Positions 22,317 through 32,877 of a stretch of 64,000 nucleotides of DNA are shown piece after piece. The position numbers and the translations under genes are program-made. The notes under the pieces are model-generated. The model had not been told where the DNA came from and ran no database searches. It saw only the letters and a list, made by a program, of their open reading frames with translations. Position 1 is the first letter of the stretch, and the number at the start of each line of letters is the position of its first letter. This DNA comes from Nostoc sp. FACHB-152. Its GTDB lineage: Bacteria; Cyanobacteriota; Cyanobacteriia; Cyanobacteriales; Nostocaceae. The stretch covers positions 124,001-188,000 of the forward strand of contig NZ_JACJRV010000005.1 in assembly GCF_014697475.1 (NCBI RefSeq), written 5' to 3'.

Positions 22317-23201
22317 TCAGCTTGTAACATTTATCCAAAAATCAGCAGTGATGATTTTACCATTGCGATTGAACTGACCCCAAAGCTTATACTTTCCTGG
22401 CTGTGGAAAGCTAGTCATAAAATGAACCTGTCCAGTCGGGGTATTTTGTAGTGCGTGAGCATGGATGTAATCTGCTGCTGTTAATGGGGTTGAATGTCGC
22501 AGGATAACTAAATGTCCTTGTTCTCCTAAGTAAGGCTGTAAATCTGTAAGCGGTTGATTGTTAGAAGCATCTTTTAAGTGAAAAATTAAAGTGACTTCTT
22601 TACCTGCTTTTACAGTGGCTTCAGAGAGAGCAAGATTGACTTTAGTATCACTGAAAGTTTTACTACGCTTAATGTCAATTTCTGGAGCAGCAATAGTTAT
22701 TCCTGGAACTTGTGTTTTCAATACAGAGATTTGTTCTGCTTGACCAGTAGGTTTGTAGTCACTAAAAAATGTGTAACCACCAGCTTGGGGAAAATTAGCT
22801 TCAACTTCAAACTGCCCATTATCTTTATATACGGGATGAAGATGACTAAAATACTGAAGATCATCACTGACAACAATCAAGTGCATTAACTTTTCTTGGA
22901 AAGTGTCAAAATTTGTAATTGTCTTTCCATCAAAATCGTGAACCTCAATCAATATCGGAATCCTTGTATTCTGGCTAATGGTACTAGAAATTGTGAGTTT
23001 TGCCTGAGTTACTGCTTTCTTTTCACCATGAACTGTGCTACTTGTTGAATGTTCTGTATGATGGTTATCACTTATTAAAAAGTCTTCATGCTGATGTGTA
23101 CTAACAGATATTGCTTTTTCTTCAGCTTTAGGTAATAACGAACAACTTTGAGCAATGAATAAAGTAGTAGTTATTGCGATCGCATTGATAAATCTTTTCA
23201 T
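22317..23201 (-). CDS. Periplasmic lipoprotein, metal-island member
   Basis: A 20-residue signal ends in the lipobox AQSC, with Cys20 as the lipidated residue. After a His-rich linker (HQHEDFL, DNHHTEH) come two beta-rich, immunoglobulin-like domains. The first has HLIVVSDDLQYFSHLHP; the second repeats the pattern with HLVILRHSTPL and HAHAL, so His residues cluster in matching places and suggest metal binding. The gene has its own MerR-type promoter at 23253-23283, the same operator as the pump and ATPase genes. A role as periplasmic metal-binding or chaperone protein for the RND pump is inferred. I do not know a named family. Confidence 0.75.
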   Translation of the reverse strand: MKRFINAIAITTTLFIAQSCSLLPKAEEKAISVSTHQHEDFLISDNHHTEHSTSSTVHGEKKAVTQAKLTISSTISQNTRIPILIEVHDFDGKTITNFDTFQEKLMHLIVVSDDLQYFSHLHPVYKDNGQFEVEANFPQAGGYTFFSDYKPTGQAEQISVLKTQVPGITIAAPEIDIKRSKTFSDTKVNLALSEATVKAGKEVTLIFHLKDASNNQPLTDLQPYLGEQGHLVILRHSTPLTAADYIHAHALQNTPTGQVHFMTSFPQPGKYKLWGQFNRNGKIITADFWINVTS

Positions 23202-23252
23202 TGACTTTGCTCCATTAGTGAATTTACGAATTATCTACTCAACATAAAATCA

Positions 23253-23283
23253 CTTTAAATTGTCTAGTTAGCTGGAGAGTCAA
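23253..23283 (-). promoter_or_regulatory. MerR-type operator-promoter A (lipoprotein gene)
   Basis: Read on the minus strand, TTGACT (23278-23283) and TTAAAG (23253-23258) are separated by 19 bases, the long spacing of MerR-controlled promoters. The spacer overlaps an imperfect 22-bp palindrome at 23259-23280, with one good half (TGGAGAGT on the plus strand) and one weak half (five of eight bases). Confidence 0.75.
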
Positions 23284-23378
23284 GAGGAAAAATCAAATAA
23301 TTATTAGTTGATTCTATATTAATAAAAAATCACGTTTATTATTTTTAATAAACGCGCATTAAGATTTATATCTCCTGA

Positions 23379-26300
23379 TTATTTTGCTAACTCACCTGCT
23401 GGATATTTAGCCTTTGGTAAACCTGCAAACCGCATACGAATTTGGCTAATCACGATATACAGGATAGGTACTACAAACAAACTCAAGAAAGTAGCAACGA
23501 ACATTCCACCAAAGACAGCAGTACCAAGAGATTGACGGCTAGCTGACCCTGCGCCTGTAGCGACAACAAGCGGCCAAGTTCCCAGTAGCGTAGAAATAGC
23601 AGTCATGATAATTGGTCGTAAGCGTTCTCCAGAAGCTTTGACGGCTGCTTTGGTAATTGAAAAACCTTGGTCGCGTAATTGGTTAGCAAATTCAACAATT
23701 AAAATTGCATTTTTACTAGCTAAACCAATTAACATCACTAAACCAACCTGACAGTAAACATCGTTATACAAACCACGCCATGATTGAGCTAATAATGCTC
23801 CTAAAACAGCTAAGGGAACTGATAATAAAATAATCAAAGGGTCAACGAAGTTATTGTATTGAGCAGCCAGCACTAGGAAAACGAAGAAAATTCCTAGACC
23901 AAAAATAATTGGTGCTTGACCACCAGATTCTAATTCTTCTAAAGTAATCCCTGACCATTCGTAGCCCATATTTTTTGGTAAGACAGTAGTGGCTAAACTT
24001 TTCATCGCTTGGATTGCTTGTCCAGAACTAAAACCAGGTGCAGCTGCGCCATTGATTTCTATTGAACGATACAGGTTGTAGTGGTTAATTGTTTGCGGCC
24101 CGGTAGTTGGTCTTACTTTAACCAAACTACTGAGGGAAATCATCTCACCTTGTCTAGAACGCACATATAGTTGTCCAATATCTTCTGGGTTGGCGCGAAA
24201 CTGTTGATCTGCTTGAACATAGACTCGGTACGTGCGACCAAAAGCATTAAAGTCGTTGACGTAGCGTGAACCGATGAAAGTCTGCAATGTGCTAAAGATA
24301 TCTCTAACAGGGACTTGTAAGGCTTCGGCTTTTTCTCGATCTACTTCGATAAGTAACTGCGGTGCGTTAGCGGTGTAGGTACTAAATACTCCTTGCAGTC
24401 CTGGTGTTTGATTTGCTTTGCCGATTAAATCATGACTGATTTTGACTAAATTATTGATGTCGCTATTATTTCTGTCGCCTCTATCTTGCAACTGAAACAC
24501 AAAACCACCCACACTACCTAAACTTTGGATAGTCGGAGGATTCACCGCAAACACGGCTGCGTCTTTAATTGCTGACAGTCCACCTCTAGCTTGATTCACA
24601 ATTGCTGATGCTGTTTGTTGGGCTGTTTTTCGCACATCCCAAGATTTGAGAGGTGCAAATATTAAACCTCTGTTGGGAGTGTTACCACTAAAACCAACAC
24701 CACCCATTGCAAAGGTACCTTTAATCTCTGGTATTTTCAGCAGTGTTTTTTCTGCTTGCTTCGCAACTTCACGGGTGTAGTTGAGTGAAGTGCCATCTGG
24801 CCCCTGTATTAAGTTAATAAAATAACCTTGGTCTTCTTCTGGTAAAAATGCTGTCGGTACGCGCAGGTAAAGCCAGCCTGTCCAAACCAAAGATGCAATA
24901 AATAAAACCACAACAACAATTTTTAAGTGGATAAGCAACCGGAGAATTTGTTGGTATCCTTTTTGCATCCAGTCAAGTAACCAATTAATCGCTCCAAAAA
25001 TCCAGCCTAGTAAACCGCGTGGTTTTTGAGTTTTCCGCAACAACATAGCTGCCAGAGCTGGAGTTAAGGTAATAGCAATAAAAGTCGAAAGTACAATTGA
25101 GAAAGCAATTGTCAGTGCAAATTGTTTATATAGTTGTCCCGTTGTTCCAGGGAAGAATCCCACAGGAATAAACATAGCCATGAGTACGAGGGATGTGGCA
25201 ATTACCGCCCCAAACAGTTCTGTCATGGATTCACTAGCCGCCCGCCGGGGATTCATCCCTTTACTCTGGATAAAGCGGTTAATTTGTTCGACGATGATGA
25301 TTGCATCGTCTACCACCATCCCCGACCCTAAAGTCAAACCAAACAAAGTCAAGCTGTTAAGTGAAAAATCGAAAATTTTTACAAAGGCAAACGTTCCAAT
25401 TAAAGAAATCGGAATTGTAATTGCGGGAATGAGGGTAGTACGCCAGTCTTGTAAGAAAACAAAAATTACTAAGACAACCAGCACAATTGATTCCAATAAA
25501 TTTTTGACAACTTCCTGACGAGACGCTTCGACAAATAGTGAAGAATCATAGGGAAATTCGTATTTCAAACCAGGTGGAAAGTCCTTTGCAATTTGCTCCA
25601 TTTCGGCTTTTACCGCATTGGCAATTTTTAAAGCATTGCTCCCAGGAATTTGCAGAATTTGATAGCCGACAGCAACGTGACCACTATAGCGAGCAAAGGA
25701 ACTGTAATTTTCTGCCCCAAGTTCAGCACGACCAACATCTCTTAGTTTCACAAGTGTGCCATCTGTATCCGCTTTGATGACCATGTTTTCAAATTCGTCA
25801 GCTTCTTTTAGTCTCCCTTGAGTTTGCAACTCGATTTGATACATTTGCCCATTTGGTGCGGGTGGCTGTCCAATACTCCCAATACCCAACTGTAAGTTTT
25901 GTTGGTGAAGGGCGTTAATTACATCCTCTGTCGTCAGTTTGCGATTGGCAAGTTGAGTCGGGTCAAGCCACAACCGCATCGCATAGCGGCGATCGCCAAA
26001 AGTTGCAATATTACCTACACCTTTAATGCGTCTGAGGCGGTCTAAAACATAAAGGTCGGCGTAGTTACTAATAAAAGTGTCATCATATTTATCACCTTCG
26101 CTATACATAGCCATCGCTAAGACGATACCACTGGATTGCTTTGTGACAGAAACGCCCGTTTGTCGGACAACTTCTGGCAGTTTTGGTTCTGCAAGCAAGA
26201 CGCGATTCTGCACATCATTAGCTGCAACATCGATGTTATATCCTTGCTCAAAAGTGACAACGATGTTACTAGTACCATCACTGCTGCTGGTTGAGGTGAT

Positions 26301-26534
26301 ATATTTCAAGCCCTCGACACCATTAATTTGGCGTTCTAAAACTGTTGTTACTGTATCTTCTACAACTTGAGCGTTAGCACCAATGTAATTTGCAGTGACA
26401 TTGATTTGCACAGGACTGATATCTGGGTACTGCTCTACTGGTAGTAGCGGAATGCTGATTATACCTACCATGAGCATTACTAAAGCGCAGGCGATCGCAA
26501 ATACAGGTCGCTTAATAAAAAAATTCGCAAACAT
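23379..26534 (-). CDS. RND efflux pump, HAE1 (AcrB-like) inner-membrane subunit
   Basis: This 1051-residue proton-driven exporter has the AcrB layout: TM1 at the start (FFIKRPVFAIA), a large periplasmic loop (about 35-335), six membrane helices with the proton-relay pair in GMVVDDAIIIVEQ, a second loop (about 560-870) and a final helical bundle with GLASKNAILIVEFANQL. The conserved HAE1 opening KRPVFA and the Asp-Asp pair separate it from metal-type HME pumps (CzcA/CusA), so its substrates may be hydrophobic compounds even though it is under a MerR-type promoter. It lies 35 bases after the adaptor gene in one operon. No TolC-like outer-membrane gene is in the window. Confidence 0.95.
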   Translation of the reverse strand: MFANFFIKRPVFAIACALVMLMVGIISIPLLPVEQYPDISPVQINVTANYIGANAQVVEDTVTTVLERQINGVEGLKYITSTSSSDGTSNIVVTFEQGYNIDVAANDVQNRVLLAEPKLPEVVRQTGVSVTKQSSGIVLAMAMYSEGDKYDDTFISNYADLYVLDRLRRIKGVGNIATFGDRRYAMRLWLDPTQLANRKLTTEDVINALHQQNLQLGIGSIGQPPAPNGQMYQIELQTQGRLKEADEFENMVIKADTDGTLVKLRDVGRAELGAENYSSFARYSGHVAVGYQILQIPGSNALKIANAVKAEMEQIAKDFPPGLKYEFPYDSSLFVEASRQEVVKNLLESIVLVVLVIFVFLQDWRTTLIPAITIPISLIGTFAFVKIFDFSLNSLTLFGLTLGSGMVVDDAIIIVEQINRFIQSKGMNPRRAASESMTELFGAVIATSLVLMAMFIPVGFFPGTTGQLYKQFALTIAFSIVLSTFIAITLTPALAAMLLRKTQKPRGLLGWIFGAINWLLDWMQKGYQQILRLLIHLKIVVVVLFIASLVWTGWLYLRVPTAFLPEEDQGYFINLIQGPDGTSLNYTREVAKQAEKTLLKIPEIKGTFAMGGVGFSGNTPNRGLIFAPLKSWDVRKTAQQTASAIVNQARGGLSAIKDAAVFAVNPPTIQSLGSVGGFVFQLQDRGDRNNSDINNLVKISHDLIGKANQTPGLQGVFSTYTANAPQLLIEVDREKAEALQVPVRDIFSTLQTFIGSRYVNDFNAFGRTYRVYVQADQQFRANPEDIGQLYVRSRQGEMISLSSLVKVRPTTGPQTINHYNLYRSIEINGAAAPGFSSGQAIQAMKSLATTVLPKNMGYEWSGITLEELESGGQAPIIFGLGIFFVFLVLAAQYNNFVDPLIILLSVPLAVLGALLAQSWRGLYNDVYCQVGLVMLIGLASKNAILIVEFANQLRDQGFSITKAAVKASGERLRPIIMTAISTLLGTWPLVVATGAGSASRQSLGTAVFGGMFVATFLSLFVVPILYIVISQIRMRFAGLPKAKYPAGELAK

Positions 26535-26569
26535 AAACTTATTCTTTGTAAATAAAAATCTGGATTTAG

Positions 26570-27880
26570 CTAAGGCTCAGGAATAATAGGAGTGCCATCT
26601 CTTAAATTGATTAAACCGGAAACAATAATTTTTTCTCCTGCGGTTAAACCTTTCAGCACTTGATACTGATTACCCTGGATACTACCTAGCTCTAAAGGTT
26701 TGAGCCGTGCTACTAACCCCTGTTCCTTAGGTGAAAATTCAGCTACATAAACAAAGGTTTCTGCACCCAAACGGATAACAGTTGTTGTAGGAATTAATAC
26801 TCCTGGGCGTTTGTCCCAAACCACTTTAGCTTTCACGAATTGGTCGGCTCGCAACTGTCTCCGGGAATTATCAAATAGTGATTTGACTAAGACTGACTGA
26901 GTATCGTTAGCGGTGTTGGGAGCAATGAAAAATATTCGACTGCTTCCGAGATTTTTACCTCGTTCGTCAATTAACTGCAATGTCATTCCAGGACGTAATC
27001 GGGTTGCTTGCTGAACTGGTACGGAGATATTGACTTCTAGAGTTTGATTTTCGGTGATAGTTGCTAATTGCGTCGAAGTATCAACAAAATCACCGATTTT
27101 GATGGGGATATCGCCCACTTTGCCAGCAAAAGGAGCAGTAATTTTGTAGTATTTCAACTGGACTTGTTGTTGCTTGGTAGCTGCTTGAGCTTGCTGTACT
27201 GCTTTTTCGGCTTGAGAAATCGCAGCTTTTTGGGCTTGAATTTGGGCATCCATCGCATTCAAACTGCCTTTAGCTGTAGCTAGTTTGTTAGCGTATTGAT
27301 CTTGAGTTTGGCGAGATATCGCACCTTCCGCAGCCAGATAAGAGTACCTTTGGTAGTCCAACTCGTTTAGCTTGACATCAGCTTGCTTAGATAAACGTTC
27401 AGCTTCTATAGATTTGAGAGTCGCTTTAGCATTTTCGAGTTGCGATCGCGCCGCCATTGCTGCTGCATCCACACCGCTAACTACTGCTTTTTGTTCTTCT
27501 GCATCTATTTGTAAAATTGGTGTACCTGCTTTTACTTCATCGCCGGATCTCACAAAAATCTGGCTGACTTGTCCTTGAATTCTGGGACGGAGAGTGACTG
27601 AGCGGCGAGATTGGAGGTTAGCAATAAAACTTGAACTTTGTTCAATTGTGCTTGCTTGTAGTGAGGATAATTTAACTTTTACGCCAGGAGGTGCAACATC
27701 TGTAGCTACTGGGGATTTCTGGGTGGGAGTCAGCACTCGCCAACTAACAATACCTCCACCTACTAAGAATAAGGTTAGCAATAGCCAAAGCCACGGTCTT
27801 GTTAAGTGCGGTAACTGTAATTCAGTCTCGAAATCATCATTTATATCTAGAATAGGGGTTTGGTTTTCCAAGGGGTTCAT
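26570..27880 (-). CDS. RND periplasmic adaptor (membrane fusion protein)
   Basis: The 436-residue AcrA-type adaptor links the inner-membrane pump to an outer-membrane channel. It has a cytoplasmic start, one membrane anchor (about 29-48), a lipoyl half-motif (VTLRPRIQGQVSQIFVRSGDEVKAGTPILQID, split over about 95-126), a long alpha-hairpin (about 135-245), the second lipoyl half (YYKITAPFAGKVGDIPIKIGDFV) and beta-barrel and membrane-proximal domains. It is the first gene of the pump operon, with a leader of about 140 bases after operator B. Confidence 0.93.
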   Translation of the reverse strand: MNPLENQTPILDINDDFETELQLPHLTRPWLWLLLTLFLVGGGIVSWRVLTPTQKSPVATDVAPPGVKVKLSSLQASTIEQSSSFIANLQSRRSVTLRPRIQGQVSQIFVRSGDEVKAGTPILQIDAEEQKAVVSGVDAAAMAARSQLENAKATLKSIEAERLSKQADVKLNELDYQRYSYLAAEGAISRQTQDQYANKLATAKGSLNAMDAQIQAQKAAISQAEKAVQQAQAATKQQQVQLKYYKITAPFAGKVGDIPIKIGDFVDTSTQLATITENQTLEVNISVPVQQATRLRPGMTLQLIDERGKNLGSSRIFFIAPNTANDTQSVLVKSLFDNSRRQLRADQFVKAKVVWDKRPGVLIPTTTVIRLGAETFVYVAEFSPKEQGLVARLKPLELGSIQGNQYQVLKGLTAGEKIIVSGLINLRDGTPIIPEP

Positions 27881-28018
27881 GTTTGAGGAATTCCTATAAA
27901 TTCAATTGAGAACTTTCTATCAACAATTAGTCTTTTGCCAACTGTTGATAGACTTTAAAAAACCCTATATTGATGGATAACTAACAGAGTTTTAATTAAT
28001 TTACTCAACTTGGAATTA

Positions 28019-28049
28019 GCTTAAACTCTCCATCATCCTGGAGAGTCAA
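28019..28049 (-). promoter_or_regulatory. MerR-type operator-promoter B (RND operon)
   Basis: On the minus strand TTGACT (28044-28049) and TTAAGC (28019-28024) are 19 bases apart. The spacer region holds a palindrome at 28025-28046 with perfect 8-bp halves, ACTCTCCA-N6-TGGAGAGT. It lies about 140 bases upstream of the adaptor start. Confidence 0.85.
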
Positions 28050-28087
28050 GAGTAAAATCAAAAAAATCAACCACAAATAAACAAACA

Positions 28088-28124
28088 AAAAGTCTGAGCG
28101 GAAGCTTACTCTGCTCAGACTTTT
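28088..28124 (-). terminator. Terminator after merR
   Basis: A perfect 12-bp stem (AAAAGTCTGAGC / GCTCAGACTTTT) with a 13-base loop is followed on the minus strand by a run of Ts. It lies between the end of merR and operator B, so it should stop merR transcription before the pump promoter. Confidence 0.75.
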
Positions 28125-28250
28125 AACAACAGATGTCCACAAATACATCCTCGTGTTTATCTGTGTGAATCTGTTGTTTTATATATAATTAACTTTTTAT
28201 TTTTGTACTAAAGACCGTTGATATTTATATCTCTAGCTTGACAAAACTAT

Positions 28251-28664
28251 TTATTCATTTTCGATAATTGGGCAAATAGTTGAATGGTCATTATCAGGTT
28301 TTATTTCCCAACCAGAAAGCAACCCTGATAATTCTTGTCTCAAAATCAATAATTGCTGAATTTGTTCATCAATAGCTTTTACCTTATCTTCCAGTTTAAT
28401 TTTGATATGCTCACAAGGTAATTCTCCCTCATCATGAACATTTAAAAATTCCTTAATCTCTAACAAACTTAATCCTAAACTTTGAGCGCGTTTAATAAAA
28501 TGCAGTCGCTCCAAAACTTCAGAGTTAAATAATCTAAATCCACCCTCAGTTCTGCCTGATGATTTAAGTAGGCCAAGTTCTTCATAGTAGCGAATAGTTT
28601 TAATTGGTACGCCGCTTTCTTTGGCGACTACACCAATCTGTTTTGCTTCTGCTTGGGCTAACAT
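28251..28664 (-). CDS. MerR family metal-responsive regulator
   Basis: This is a 137-residue MerR activator. The winged helix-turn-helix is at residues 9-45 (IGVVAKESGVPIKTIRYYEELGLL), followed by a dimer helix (about 88-117) and a C-terminal metal loop. Cys84 lies where ZntR has Cys79, and His127 and Cys131 (HSTICPIIE) match the ZntR loop; CueR-type Cu(I) sensors have Ser at the first position. Only one of the two CueR loop cysteines is present. A divalent-metal or mixed specificity is therefore inferred. The ATG at 28664 is preferred over a TTG at 28673. The gene has its own copy of the operator (C), so it should regulate itself. Confidence 0.9.
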   Translation of the reverse strand: MLAQAEAKQIGVVAKESGVPIKTIRYYEELGLLKSSGRTEGGFRLFNSEVLERLHFIKRAQSLGLSLLEIKEFLNVHDEGELPCEHIKIKLEDKVKAIDEQIQQLLILRQELSGLLSGWEIKPDNDHSTICPIIENE

Positions 28665-28704
28665 ACTTACCAAACCTTCAGTGAGATATGATTGCTAATT
28701 TTAA

Positions 28705-28735
28705 TCCTAAACTCTCCATTTAGCTGGAGAGTCAA
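28705..28735 (-). promoter_or_regulatory. MerR-type operator-promoter C (merR itself)
   Basis: On the minus strand TTGACT (28730-28735) and TTAGGA (28705-28710) are 19 bases apart, around a perfect-halved palindrome at 28711-28732 (ACTCTCCA-N6-TGGAGAGT). It points toward merR, 41 bases downstream. The PaiB-like gene diverges from the other side. Confidence 0.85.
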
Positions 28736-28850
28736 GCATGAAAAGTATCGTTATTTATAATGCTTACCCACTCATGGTTTTGGTCAGCCATTCGGTTGAA
28801 TAAGTAAGCGAAGCCGTAATAAACTACGTCATCATTATGATTTTCAGACC

Positions 28851-29492
28851 ATGTACATCCCAACCGCTTTTCGAGAAGATGACATTGAGAAACTGGTCGC
28901 TTTCATGCGTGCTAATAGTTTTGCTACGTTAGTATCTATTTTGAATGATGTCCCTGTTGCTTCACATATCCCGCTTGTTGTCACAGTACAGAACGGTGTT
29001 GTTAAGCTGTCAGGACATCTTGCTAAACCCAATCCTCAATGGCAAGGTTTTGGCGTTGGTCAGACACTTGCTGTCTTTACCGGGCCTCACGCTTACATCT
29101 CACCATCTTTGTATGAGAAGGAACAGAGTGTACCGACGTGGAACTTCATCGCTGTACACGCCTACGGAGTACCTCAAATTATCACCCTCGGAGATTCGCC
29201 AGAACAGATGGATAAAATAATTGACGAGATGATTGATACTTATGAATCTGAGTATAAATCTCAGTGGCATAACTTATCTCATAACTTCCGCGAGGGAATG
29301 ATGAATGGCATCATTGCTTTTGAGATGACCGTCACACGCTTAGAAGGGAAATACAAACTTAGCCAAAATCGCAGTCATGCTGACCAGTATAATGTTGCAC
29401 ATACACTGCTACAAAGTTCAGAGCCAACTGTTCAGGCTATAGGTGCAGCAATGAAACAGAACCTTGAAAAGGATGGAGATTCGCCCAAATAA
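28851..29492 (+). CDS. FMN-binding protein, PaiB family
   Basis: The 213-residue protein is a PaiB-type FMN-binding protein (called a negative transcriptional regulator in Bacillus). It has the family start MYIPTAFREDD, the strand ATLVSILNDVPVASHIPL, the FMN-region motif HLAKPNPQW and the highly conserved VPTWNFIAVHAYG. A split-barrel flavin fold is expected, so oxidoreductase activity is possible. It is divergent from merR with the operator between them, but the promoter elements point only the other way, so control by MerR is not shown. It converges with the cupredoxin gene, 27 bases apart. Confidence 0.9.
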   Translation: MYIPTAFREDDIEKLVAFMRANSFATLVSILNDVPVASHIPLVVTVQNGVVKLSGHLAKPNPQWQGFGVGQTLAVFTGPHAYISPSLYEKEQSVPTWNFIAVHAYGVPQIITLGDSPEQMDKIIDEMIDTYESEYKSQWHNLSHNFREGMMNGIIAFEMTVTRLEGKYKLSQNRSHADQYNVAHTLLQSSEPTVQAIGAAMKQNLEKDGDSPK

Positions 29493-29519
29493 TCGAACTG
29501 ATGATTTTTGTGCAGAAAT

Positions 29520-30119
29520 TTATTCCTTGACAGTGCCTAAAGATTTGGGTTGAAGTTTGATCATCGTTTCATCTTTAATAGCGATCGCGCCTTGAATGTC
29601 TGATGCTTCGGCTTGGATTTCACCGCGAAACATATTCATTCCGCAGGTGAAAAGATATGTTCCGGCTTGTTCGGGTGTAAATTCCACAATTGTTACCTGA
29701 TTAAGCGGTAAATCTGCGGCAATATGAAAGTCTGGAATTATTACTTGTTCTAAGCAACTGCTGGGATCTTTGCGTTCAAATTTCAGTCGTACTGGTGTCC
29801 CCGTTTGCACTACAATTCGACTTGGTTCATATCCGCCATCAACAGTAACGGTTACTTCCTGGACATTTCCACCTGTTGCAATTGCTTTTTGAGATTTGGA
29901 TTTACTCAGCAAGAACCACCAGAGTTCTAAACCAATGAGTCCCAACCCGCCGAGGGTGACGGCCACCTTCCTCTCTAAGGGTTGATCAATACGTTGAAAT
30001 TGATTGGTTTGGACTGAGTGTGTCTCATGGGATGTTTGTGTTGCTGCTTCACCAGATGCAATTGCGAATAAAATGCCTAAACTTGCTATACTGCCTATAA
30101 GTGCTGTTCTGTTCACCAT
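29520..30119 (-). CDS. Membrane-anchored cupredoxin-domain protein
   Basis: The protein has an N-terminal signal-like segment (about 5-26), a second membrane helix (about 52-71) and a C-terminal cupredoxin fold (about 85-170). Possible copper ligands are Cys122, His132, Cys159, Met161 and Met163 (LFTCGMNMFRG), with the family pattern GGYEPSRIVVQTGTPVRL. Such domains resemble those fused to copper ATPases and EfeO. It lies 83 bases after the Cu(I) ATPase gene on the same strand, so it is likely co-transcribed from operator D and could accept exported copper in the periplasm. Confidence 0.85.
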   Translation of the reverse strand: MVNRTALIGSIASLGILFAIASGEAATQTSHETHSVQTNQFQRIDQPLERKVAVTLGGLGLIGLELWWFLLSKSKSQKAIATGGNVQEVTVTVDGGYEPSRIVVQTGTPVRLKFERKDPSSCLEQVIIPDFHIAADLPLNQVTIVEFTPEQAGTYLFTCGMNMFRGEIQAEASDIQGAIAIKDETMIKLQPKSLGTVKE

Positions 30120-30202
30120 TGAAAAATCTCCTGTGTTGAAAAAAGGGGCTAGAGATTAGGGGCTAGGGACTAGAGAAGAAAGTGTTAAGTAAAACACAAA
30201 AA

Positions 30203-32506
30203 CTAACCTCTAACACCTTTAGGTTGAAATTTACGTAAACGCAGCGCATTGGTGACTACAGAAACTGAACTAAAAGCCATTGCTGCACCGGCGATAATCG
30301 GGTTAAGTAACCAACCGAAGAAGGGATAGAGAATACCAGCAGCGATGGGAATACCAGCAACGTTATAAATGAAGGCAAAGAATAAGTTTTGGCGAATGTT
30401 GCGAATTGTGGCGCGACTGAGTTGAATTGCTGTAACTATGCTTTGCAAATCACCAGAGATTAAAGTGATGTCACTAGCTGCGATCGCCACATCTGTACCA
30501 GTCCCAATCGCAATTCCCACATCGGCTTGAGCCAAGGCTGGTGCATCATTTATACCATCACCAACCATCGCCACAATTTTAGATTTTATTCTCCTCTGCT
30601 CCCCTGCTCCTCTGCTCCCCTGCTCCAGTTGCAGCACTTTAACTACTTCGGCTTTTTGATCCGGGCGGACTTCTGCTAAGACTCTTTTGATACCAACTTC
30701 ACGAGCAATACTTTCGGCGGTGCGCTGGTTATCACCTGTAAGCATTACAACTTCTAAACCGAGTTTTTGCAATGCTTTTACAGCTTGGATGGAAGTAGGT
30801 TTAATTGCATCAGCAATCCCCATCACTCCTTTGATTTCGCCATCAACTGCTAACCAAACGGCGGTTTTACCCAGATATTCTAAGCGTTCTTTGTCTTGTT
30901 GCAAAGCTTGAGTGTTAATACTTAATTCTTCCATCCAACGTTGTGTCCCAATTTGCACAAGACAGTTAGCCACTATACCTTGCACGCCACTACCTGCTAC
31001 AGCCTCAAAATCTCTAACATCTGCTAATGGTACTTCCTGAGATTGAGCGTACCTAACAACTGCTTCTGCTAAAGGATGCTCAGAATTACGCTCTACCGAT
31101 GCGGCTAGTTGTATCAGCTTAATTTCGTTACCATTAGCTGTACCGTTAACTGTGACAAAATCTGTAACTGTCGGTTTACCTTGAGTAATTGTGCCAGTTT
31201 TATCTAACACAATTGTTTGAATCTGGTGCGCTAATTCTAAGCTTTCGGCTCCTTTAATTAAAATGCCGTTTTCTGCACCTTTACCTGTACCTACCATGAC
31301 TGAGGTTGGTGTAGCTAAACCCAAAGCACAAGGACAAGCGATAATTAACACCCCAACTGTAGTTATCAATGCCAGGGTGACATTACCTATGATGTTGTAC
31401 CAAATTATGAAAGTGAGGATAGCGATCGCAATTACCGCCGGTACAAACCACCCAGTAACTTGGTCTGCTAACCTCTGTATAGGAGCTTTTGAACCTTGCG
31501 CTTGTTGCACTAATTGGACAATTTGCGCCAGTACAGTATCCTTACCAACTCTTGTCGCTCGAAATTTGAAACTCCCAGTTTTATTGATAGTTGCGCCGAT
31601 GACTTCATCCCCTGGTTGCTTTTTCACAGCTACACTTTCGCCAGTCACCATCGCTTCATCAACTGTCGATGTCCCGTCAACTACTTCGCCATCAACAGGA
31701 ATTTTCTCCCCAGGACGAACCAGCACCACGTCACCAATTTTTACTTGTTCAATCGGTATATCTATTTCTTGTCCGTTGCGAATCAACCTTGCTGTCTTCG
31801 CTTGCAAACCAATCAGCTTGCGGATAGCCTCTGAGGTTTGCCCTTTGGCGCGGTTTTCAAACAGCCGTCCTAACAAAATCAAAGTAACGACAATTGCCGC
31901 CGTTTCATAATATATATCTGGACTTAAACCCTGAGCAATAAAAAAGCCAGGAACTAAAGTAGCAAATAGTGAATAGAAATATGCTGCACTTGTGCCTAAA
32001 ACAATTAACGTATCCATTGTGGCAGCATGACGCTTGAAAGCCTTCCAGGTATTGGCGTAAAAGGAGTAACCGCACCAAAACTGTACAGGAGTAGTCAGAA
32101 CTAATTGCAACCAAGGGTTATGCAACCATGCTGGAATGAAAGGTAGGTTTAACCCTGTCATCATTGGTAGTGAGCCAATTATCAACACAGTCCCAATGAT
32201 GCCCCCTACTGTCACCTTTCGCTGCAAATCACGAGATTCTTTCTGGCGATATCTTTTTTCTTCGTCATCTTCTCCCGCCATCAAGTTTTGTTCTTGGAGG
32301 GGATAGGCAGAATAACCTGCTGCATCCACCGCATTTTGGATAGCTTGTAAGTCTGTTGTTTTGGGATCGTAATCTACTGTTGCCTGTTCTGCCCCAAAAT
32401 TCACGCTACATTCATTTACACCTGGGACAGAACGAATTGCATCTTCTACACTTTTGGCACAGGAAGCGCAACTCATACCGCGTAATTTCAGTGTGGCATT
32501 CTCCAT
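30203..32506 (-). CDS. copA: Cu(I)-type P1B ATPase
   Basis: This 767-residue ATPase pumps monovalent copper (or silver) across a membrane. It has one N-terminal metal-binding domain with GMSCASC (residues 10-16), the actuator TGE (288-290), membrane metal site CPC (391-393), phosphorylation site DKTGT (435-439), HP near 477 and GDGINDAP (649-656). The late membrane motifs YN (714-715) and MAFSS (743-747) mark subgroup P1B-1 (Cu+). An extra stretch of about 13 residues near 630-642, rich in Gly, Arg and Gln, is encoded by repeat DNA. The ATG at 32506 follows an AGGAG site seven bases away; an upstream ATG at 32548 is less likely. Confidence 0.93.
30591..30626. repeat. 8-bp tandem repeat inside copA
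   Basis: Four copies of an 8-base unit (CTGCTCCC/T) preceded by a partial copy lie within the copA frame, just before the codons for GDGINDAP. A related sequence (GGGGGAGCAGAGG) is in the intergenic spacer near 22273. Reading frame is kept. Confidence 0.8.
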
Positions 32507-32553
32507 CTGTCTACTCCTATTACTAAGTAGGACTAAGCTGAAACACATCTAAA

Positions 32554-32712
32554 TTAACGTGAGTTCGATGAACCTCACCCCAACCCCTCTCCGACGCGGA
32601 GAGGGGCTTAAATATGTTTAAAACTCAACACAAAATAAAGGTTTTGAAGCCTCTCTCCTTGCAGGGGAGAGGTTTGGAGAGGGGTTTTTTAGCTCTGTCG
32701 AACTCAGGTTAA
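32554..32712. repeat. 159-bp MITE-like element with 15-bp terminal inverted repeats
   Basis: The left end TTAACGTGAGTTCGA (32554-32568) and the reverse complement of the right end (32698-32712) differ at one of 15 bases. The interior has CCTCTCC/GGAGAGG-rich palindromic segments. A partial copy ends at 513-527, and related interior sequence occurs at 39053-39150. It has no coding capacity and lies in the copA leader. Confidence 0.7.
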
Positions 32713-32734
32713 ATTACATAACCACTCGTAAAGG

Positions 32735-32787
32735 TCGTCCTTTGTCATTAGTCATTTGTATTTACAAAGGACAAATAACTAATGACA
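32735..32787. repeat. Palindromic dispersed repeat in the copA leader
   Basis: GTCATTAGTCATTTGT pairs, with one mismatch, with ACAAATAACTAATGAC further on, and GTCCTTTGT pairs with ACAAAGGAC. Related short pieces (TTGTCATTAGTCATT type) occur near 43720-43755 and 59600-59660. Confidence 0.65.
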
Positions 32788-32846
32788 GCCTCAACCAGAG
32801 AATGTGCAACTTAAACGCATACCAGCCTAGCTAACAACTATCCTTA

Positions 32847-32877
32847 TCTTGAATCCTCCAGTGAACTGGAGAGTCAA
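32847..32877 (-). promoter_or_regulatory. MerR-type operator-promoter D (copA-cupredoxin)
   Basis: On the minus strand TTGACT (32872-32877) and TCAAGA (32847-32852) are 19 bases apart, around a palindrome at 32853-32874 (ATCCTCCA-N6-TGGAGAGT, one half with two changes). It lies about 340 bases upstream of the copA start, with the 159-bp element between. Confidence 0.8.

Follow-up and report, generated by a model that had tools for sequence, protein, structure and literature searches.

The 64,000-nucleotide stretch of Nostoc sp. FACHB-152 analyzed here (the window; assembly GCF_014697475.1, contig NZ_JACJRV010000005.1, positions 124,001 to 188,000) contains four copies of a MerR-type operator, each set in a promoter that leads into one of four units: a lipoprotein gene, the adaptor and permease genes of an RND pump, merR, and copA with a cupredoxin gene. 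All of these genes lie on the minus strand of the window, which is part of an 8.6 Mb genome. The four sites are very probably MerR-activated promoters of a copper regulon under the MerR protein encoded in the window, a regulon that would also hold a unit beyond it. The geometry of the promoters, their conservation, the genes behind them and their co-occurrence with MerR relatives are established by the sequence.

A preliminary description of this DNA had reported four palindromes with one repeated core, and all four were found exactly where it had placed them; with up to 3 mismatches allowed, none of 100 shuffled versions of the window yields four matches. In minus-strand orientation, every window site starts with TTGACTCTCCA, and the palindrome has the core CTCTCCA-N6-TGGAGAG. 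The repeated core is exact in the operators at 28025 and 28711 but not in those at 32853 and 23259, which depart from it at two and three positions, respectively, with all mismatches confined to the arm away from the -35 element. As described, the -35 hexamer is TTGACT at all four sites on the minus strand, and each site points to the next gene (lipoprotein, RND adaptor, merR and Cu-ATPase). The reported 19-base spacing, by contrast, had to be corrected: the spacer is 20 bp at all four sites, with the 22-bp dyad between the -35 and -10 elements. The same value recurs in an alignment of 20 regions around MerR orthologues and three regions from the host genome, in which TTGA and up to 3 mismatches were specified and the -10 was not searched for. 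Of its 54 distinct related sites, 53 have the signature xA...T (A as second and T as sixth letter of the -10 element) at spacer 20; none has it at spacer 19.

A wider survey covered the best 79 of 538 named loci encoding a MerR relative and three loci of the host, 82 in all, with TTGA, up to 4 mismatches and a -10 required at spacer 20. It returned 136 distinct promoters in 49 loci. After removal of sites common to the true pattern, 104 other orderings of the half-sites gave a mean of 0.125 and a maximum of 4 sites; before removal, 60 sampled orderings gave a mean of 4.6 and a maximum of 67, near orderings recovering true sites. The reversed pattern, freed from the -35 and -10 rules, matched 8 sites. 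These counts bear on the idea that the likeness of the sites is due to chance or is a repeat artefact, with one promoter copied by a mobile element. A decayed duplicate of the locus on another contig of the host (C166) and two relatives on plasmid-titled records (L147, L152) would fit such copying, whereas the permuted half-sites and the pattern of variation do not: in the 54 aligned sites the arms, -35 and -10 are kept while the central 6 bases and the outer flanks vary. Conservation thus appears largely to refute this explanation, which we consider extremely improbable.

The occurrence of the motif was further analyzed, using a 24-letter pattern with at most one mismatch, in an even sample of 243 genomes of the order taken from a larger group. 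The motif is present in 78 of them and its reversed control in one. A MerR relative (E up to 1e-15) is encoded in 189 of the 243 genomes and in 77 of the 78 with the motif (Fisher p 1.4e-9, uncorrected for kinship); the lone exception, G178, is 77% complete. This co-occurrence argues against another regulator, such as the two-component CopR, reading the sites with merR as just a neighbor and one target, and so do the rank of merR as the commonest target (40 of 136 promoters) and the placing of the dyad between -35 and -10 in a 20-bp spacer, which is the MerR-family layout (PMC1526738, PMC5045206; statements on the literature refer throughout to the available portions of the papers). CopRS does run copper resistance in Synechocystis (PMC4284471), and in five genomes (G002, G032, G084, G160 and G185) the best MerR is of a more distant type, yet the motif stands before copA, either over 2 Mb away from the listed MerR match or on a different contig. 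Even so, a different regulator is very improbable. The closest named MerR relatives, among the best 79 of 538, come from Fortiea, Calothrix, Tolypothrix and Nostoc. An operator is found in 44 of the 52 loci whose MerR has at least 61% identity and in 3 of the 27 below this line, which was set after the list was seen and with some loci being short; an operator near merR therefore goes with the closer MerR clade. Inspection by eye of eleven lower-identity merR genes showed an operator directly before one only (L211).

Within the host genome, TTGACTCTCCA-N6-TGGAG with at most 2 mismatches occurs at 10 distinct places. Eight of these, comprising the four window sites, three sites on C166 and a single one on C68, show xA...T at spacer 20 and are not part of long frames (one is within a stop-free frame of 100 codons). 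The other two lack such a -10 and fall inside stop-free frames of 633 and 420 codons. The preliminary description had reasoned that the motif should not be equally common away from promoters, and at this stringency, with the -35 half included, that expectation was borne out. Four further promoters of the kind thus lie outside the window. The one on C68, whose -35 is weak (TAGATT), lies before the gene of a DUF305 protein, and an HMA chaperone gene follows directly. The three on C166 are conserved operators that remain in the decayed duplicate (L016 8560-10935). There the merR leader runs into an insertion that holds transposase-like fragments (by eye), copA is reduced to a truncated start, and one promoter points divergently toward a DMT_YdcZ gene. 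The claim of one MerR-type operator-promoter common to four units appears strongly supported by conservation and gene content, and the predicted regulon extends beyond the window. Three further palindromes with 2 mismatches (C13:116799, C13:151080 and C150:36671) were discarded: each falls within a stop-free frame (223, 738 and 652 codons, respectively) and has no -35/-10 pair.

The genes behind the conserved promoter point to copper. The first gene after the 136 sites is merR in 40 cases, copA in 33 (the window's included), a lipoprotein gene in 10, an RND adaptor gene in 6, a DUF305 gene in 4, an HMA chaperone gene in 3 and another gene in 30, with none found in 10; labels were assigned by BLAST to nine reference proteins and from the longest open reading frame within 420 bp, and some are possibly wrong. 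The 40 merR sites, the window's among them, lie 35-74 bp before the start codon, and the site before the adaptor gene is also found in five relatives. A second set of 30 loci was fetched by the motif, one each from 30 of the 78 motif genomes; some also hold merR, so that the set is partly dependent on the first. Its 34 sites precede copA in 19 cases, merR in 2, DUF305 genes in 2 and unlabelled genes in 7, with no gene in 4. By gene content, copA is the commonest predicted target after merR among the 136 sites and the commonest in the motif-fetched loci. Copper is proposed as the metal because the ATPase lies well above its copper subfamily cut-off and because HMA chaperones, a cupredoxin and DUF305 proteins accompany it.

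The 30 other first genes form 11 groups. Ten proteins (nine representatives of this set and one from an operator scan of related loci) were scanned against Pfam, and seven have a family: phytochelatin synthase, DUF326 and methyltransferase (one gene each), flavodoxin (two), thioredoxin-like (four), DMT_YdcZ (five) and, separately, a glutaredoxin-MauE protein. The three others are small proteins for which the scan gave no family (L143 784-1110, L154 10887-11153 and L165 10612-10893), representing groups of three, five and six genes. The phytochelatin synthase gene behind the operator is L166 775-2328 (Pfam); in L126 a similar-looking gene (by eye, 6099), read in the other direction, starts 121 bp away from the operator of merR. 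Less expected in a copper regulon are the flavodoxin genes that follow the operator at L169 6915-7830 and L165 5073 (Pfam) and at L128 9092 and L133 9429 (by eye).

The coordinates of the operators and genes are collected in Table 1.

Table 1. Predicted operators and the genes of the proposed regulon in the window (positions of the window; -, minus strand).
Feature	Position	Strand	Details
Operator 1, lipoprotein promoter	23259-23280	-	-35 at 23278-23283; -10 TAAAGT at 23252-23257; degenerate far arm, 3 mismatches
Operator 2, RND adaptor/pump promoter	28025-28046	-	exact; -35 at 28044-28049; -10 TAAGCT at 28018-28023
Operator 3, merR's own promoter	28711-28732	-	exact; -35 at 28730-28735; -10 TAGGAT at 28704-28709
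Operator 4, copA-cupredoxin promoter	32853-32874	-	2 mismatches; -35 at 32872-32877; -10 CAAGAT at 32846-32851
Lipoprotein (judged by N-terminus)	22317-23201	-	weakly YtkA-like: 21 bits, under the Pfam cut-off of 25.9
RND permease, HAE1 type	23379-26534	-	TIGR00915, 1306 bits (cut-off 940)
RND periplasmic adaptor	26570-27880	-	TIGR01730, 196 bits (cut-off 95)
MerR-type regulator P0001, 140 residues	28251-28673	-	Pfam MerR_1/MerR/MerR-DNA-bind; candidate metal ligands C87 and C134
Cupredoxin-like protein	29520-30119	-	PF13473
Cu(I)-type P1B ATPase, copA	30203-32548	-	TIGR01511, 644 bits (cut-off 397)

The listed start of merR is TTG, and an ATG three codons inward may be the true start. The copA product holds CASC (the HMA MxCxxC), CPC, YN and MxxSS, which we take to be marks of a Cu(I)-type ATPase. 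For the cupredoxin gene, neither the palindrome scan of the window nor the operator scans of related loci gave a separate operator match, and it is presumably co-transcribed with copA. The permease, of HAE1 type, scores 440 bits against TIGR00914, the CusA/CzcA type, under its cut-off of 701. The promoter of copA starts 371 bp upstream of the likely ATG (32506), a distance explained by repeated sequence occupying the leader; in 32 other copA loci the site lies 40-81 bp from copA in 19, 126 bp in one and 251-400 bp in 12. The leader repeat spans about 163 bp (32554-32716) between the copA promoter and copA, and the leader used as a query has at least 50 matches of varying length in the genome, itself included (scores were computed for 40 of 226 candidates). 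Near 32740-32790 there is, by eye, a second inverted repeat of short length. Divergent from merR, a gene on the plus strand (28851-29492) encodes an FMN_bind_2 protein (PF04299); a similar divergent gene is seen by eye in L116.

Several results weigh against a copper regulon read from these operators. Operator 1 carries 3 mismatches; its degenerate arm, TAGACAAT, is found again before lipoprotein genes in six other loci. With looser matching the motif comes close to background in the host genome: at up to 3 mismatches, TTGACTCTCCA-N6-TGGAG has 21 and 33 matches on the two strands compared with 21 and 19 for the control. At the same limit, the palindrome alone is weakly enriched, its 39 matches per strand comparing with 17 in the reversed control, and without the -35 it was rejected as a genome-wide marker. 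The motif, at up to one mismatch, is absent from 112 of the 189 genomes with a MerR match, and no operator was found in 8 of the 52 surveyed loci with at least 61% MerR identity or in 24 of the 27 with lower identity. The Cu-ATPase also clears the cut-off of the cadmium family TIGR01512, with a lower score than for the copper subfamily (396 bits against 313.5), and falls under that of the E. coli CopA equivalog NF007952 (698 against 1316). Finally, the metal might differ from copper, because the sensor has the Cys that marks divalent-metal regulators and is without one of the loop Cys of CueR.

Two Cys in the loop, C112 and C120, are the Cu(I) ligands of CueR, which has a Ser at position 77; MerR-type sensors of divalent metals combine a Cys at position 77/79 with both loop Cys. 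P0001 belongs to the MerR family, scoring above the gathering thresholds of PF00376, PF13411 and PF09278, and falls under the cut-offs of the CueR equivalog TIGR02044 (93 bits against 147) and of the divalent-sensor (MerR/ZntR/CadR-PbrR) equivalogs TIGR02051 (99 against 151), TIGR02043 (85 against 168) and TIGR02047 (85 against 151). Its best solved match by sequence is the Bacillus MerR structure 4ua1. In this alignment C87 corresponds to C79 and C134 to C123, both shared with the Bacillus protein, whereas C114 of the latter meets K125. The ligand set of P0001 therefore differs from both patterns: aligned to E. coli CueR, it has only the second of the two loop Cys and a Cys in place of the Ser, and compared with the three-Cys MerR/ZntR/CadR-PbrR set it has Cys 79 and the last loop Cys but not the first. 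Both Cys, with none between them, are found in 76 of the 79 MerR relatives; of the rest, L180 is incomplete and L205 and L212 diverge.

These features allow for a variant in which regulon and MerR are the same and the main inducer is another divalent or soft metal (Zn, Cd, Pb or Hg), the copper genes forming part of a broad response. C87 takes the place of the Bacillus C79, where CueR has Ser, and a Cys at that position typifies sensors of +2 ions; a phytochelatin synthase gene also stands behind the promoter in 1 of the 136 cases, and the 22-bp dyad in a 20-bp spacer is the geometry of ZntR (PMC1526738). Against this, a Cu(I)-type ATPase recurs at 33 of the 136 sites and at 19 of the 34 sites in the motif-fetched loci, the targets include HMA chaperones, DUF305 proteins and a DUF326 protein, a cupredoxin lies beside copA, and those 76 of the 79 relatives that carry two Cys of the three-Cys sites lack the third, the first loop Cys. 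The mercury-linked Slr0701 of Synechocystis, moreover, was assayed on an oligonucleotide with another palindrome, as judged by eye (PMC6741143). Another main inducer is thus unlikely, and copper remains the preferred metal.

Gene content says copper, whereas Cys 79, by the textbook rule, would point to divalent metals, and no feature of the sensor is more interesting than this conflict. One way out is a Cu(I) site with two Cys from different subunits. We tentatively propose, as a possibility we would not rank as the probable one, a cyanobacterial MerR subfamily that would hold Cu(I) between C87 of one chain and C134 of the other, unlike the one-loop pair of CueR and the three Cys of MerR. It would run a cytosolic copper regulon of its own in many cyanobacteria, joining export, periplasmic buffering and an HAE1 pump, to which some members would add flavodoxin and phytochelatin synthase.

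Control of an RND pump by a copper MerR protein occurs in Salmonella, where GolS governs GesABC. CueR of E. coli differs from the window protein in having both loop Cys. CueR of P. aeruginosa targets copZ1, copZ2, mexPQ-opmE, copA1 and PA3515-3519 (PMC12833586) and is alike in being a MerR-family copper regulator whose targets include an RND efflux pump along with a Cu ATPase and copper chaperones; its control of mexPQ-opmE gives a precedent for placing an RND pump of the drug type under such a protein. Unlike the window operators, with 22 bp in a 20-bp spacer, CueR sites have 21 bp (PMC5045206). The dyad and spacer of ZntR have the same lengths (PMC1526738), but its core is ACTCTGGAGTCGACTCCAGAGT instead of CTCTCCA-N6-TGGAGAG, and the targets in the window are copper genes; the main text of that paper does not mention cyanobacteria, Nostoc, Anabaena or Synechocystis.

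Among cyanobacteria, copper control has been described via CopRS, PetRP and BxmR, in the accounts as far as available. Slr0701 resembles the window protein as a cyanobacterial MerR that regulates both itself and a metal gene at a distance, but it is reported to be mercury-responsive with a different operator, and the palindrome of its assayed oligonucleotide led us to reject it as the same system (PMC6741143). CoaR (CorR) of Synechocystis is likewise a cyanobacterial MerR-family metal sensor, unlike P0001 in having a precorrin isomerase domain and activating a cobalt ATPase gene (PMC4284471). The host has its own CbiC-fused MerR: a search of P0001 against its genome (E up to 0.01) gave 2 matches, the sole other one being this CoaR-type fusion (C147:11143, L024 730-1851). 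With 32% identity and the CbiC fusion, it is unlikely to be the regulator. The Prot-DNA-Korr set holds 22 cyanobacterial regulators with HMRTR motifs of 22 bp and may include relatives of the window MerR and its motif, and the portion of text available describes no cyanobacterial copper regulon (PMC5045206). No account of this regulon was found in a literature search that covered titles and the starts of abstracts, with most subscription papers outside it. The general kind is already known; what looks like a variant is the regulon in cyanobacteria and the ligand set of its sensor.

Activation by DNA distortion is established for the MerR family, and we infer it here together with binding of the MerR protein at the sites and copper as the metal. 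The MerR protein of 28251-28673 would most likely occupy the sites and keep RNA polymerase unproductive. Once loaded with cytosolic copper, most likely Cu(I), it would untwist the over-long spacer, whose 20 bp fall within the 19-20 bp typical of MerR-family promoters, so that transcription starts. This would raise merR itself, the Cu(I) ATPase with the cupredoxin, the HAE1 RND pump and the periplasmic lipoprotein, and elsewhere in the genome probably also the DUF305 protein with its HMA chaperone.

If this reading is true, many other cyanobacteria would have a conserved copper regulon of the MerR type, which would identify an additional cytosolic sensor and define its target genes, several of them without known function. 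The sensor would also provide a test case for how a MerR protein tells Cu(I) from divalent metals once the usual Cys pair is gone, and its promoter would be a candidate copper-inducible part for filamentous cyanobacteria.

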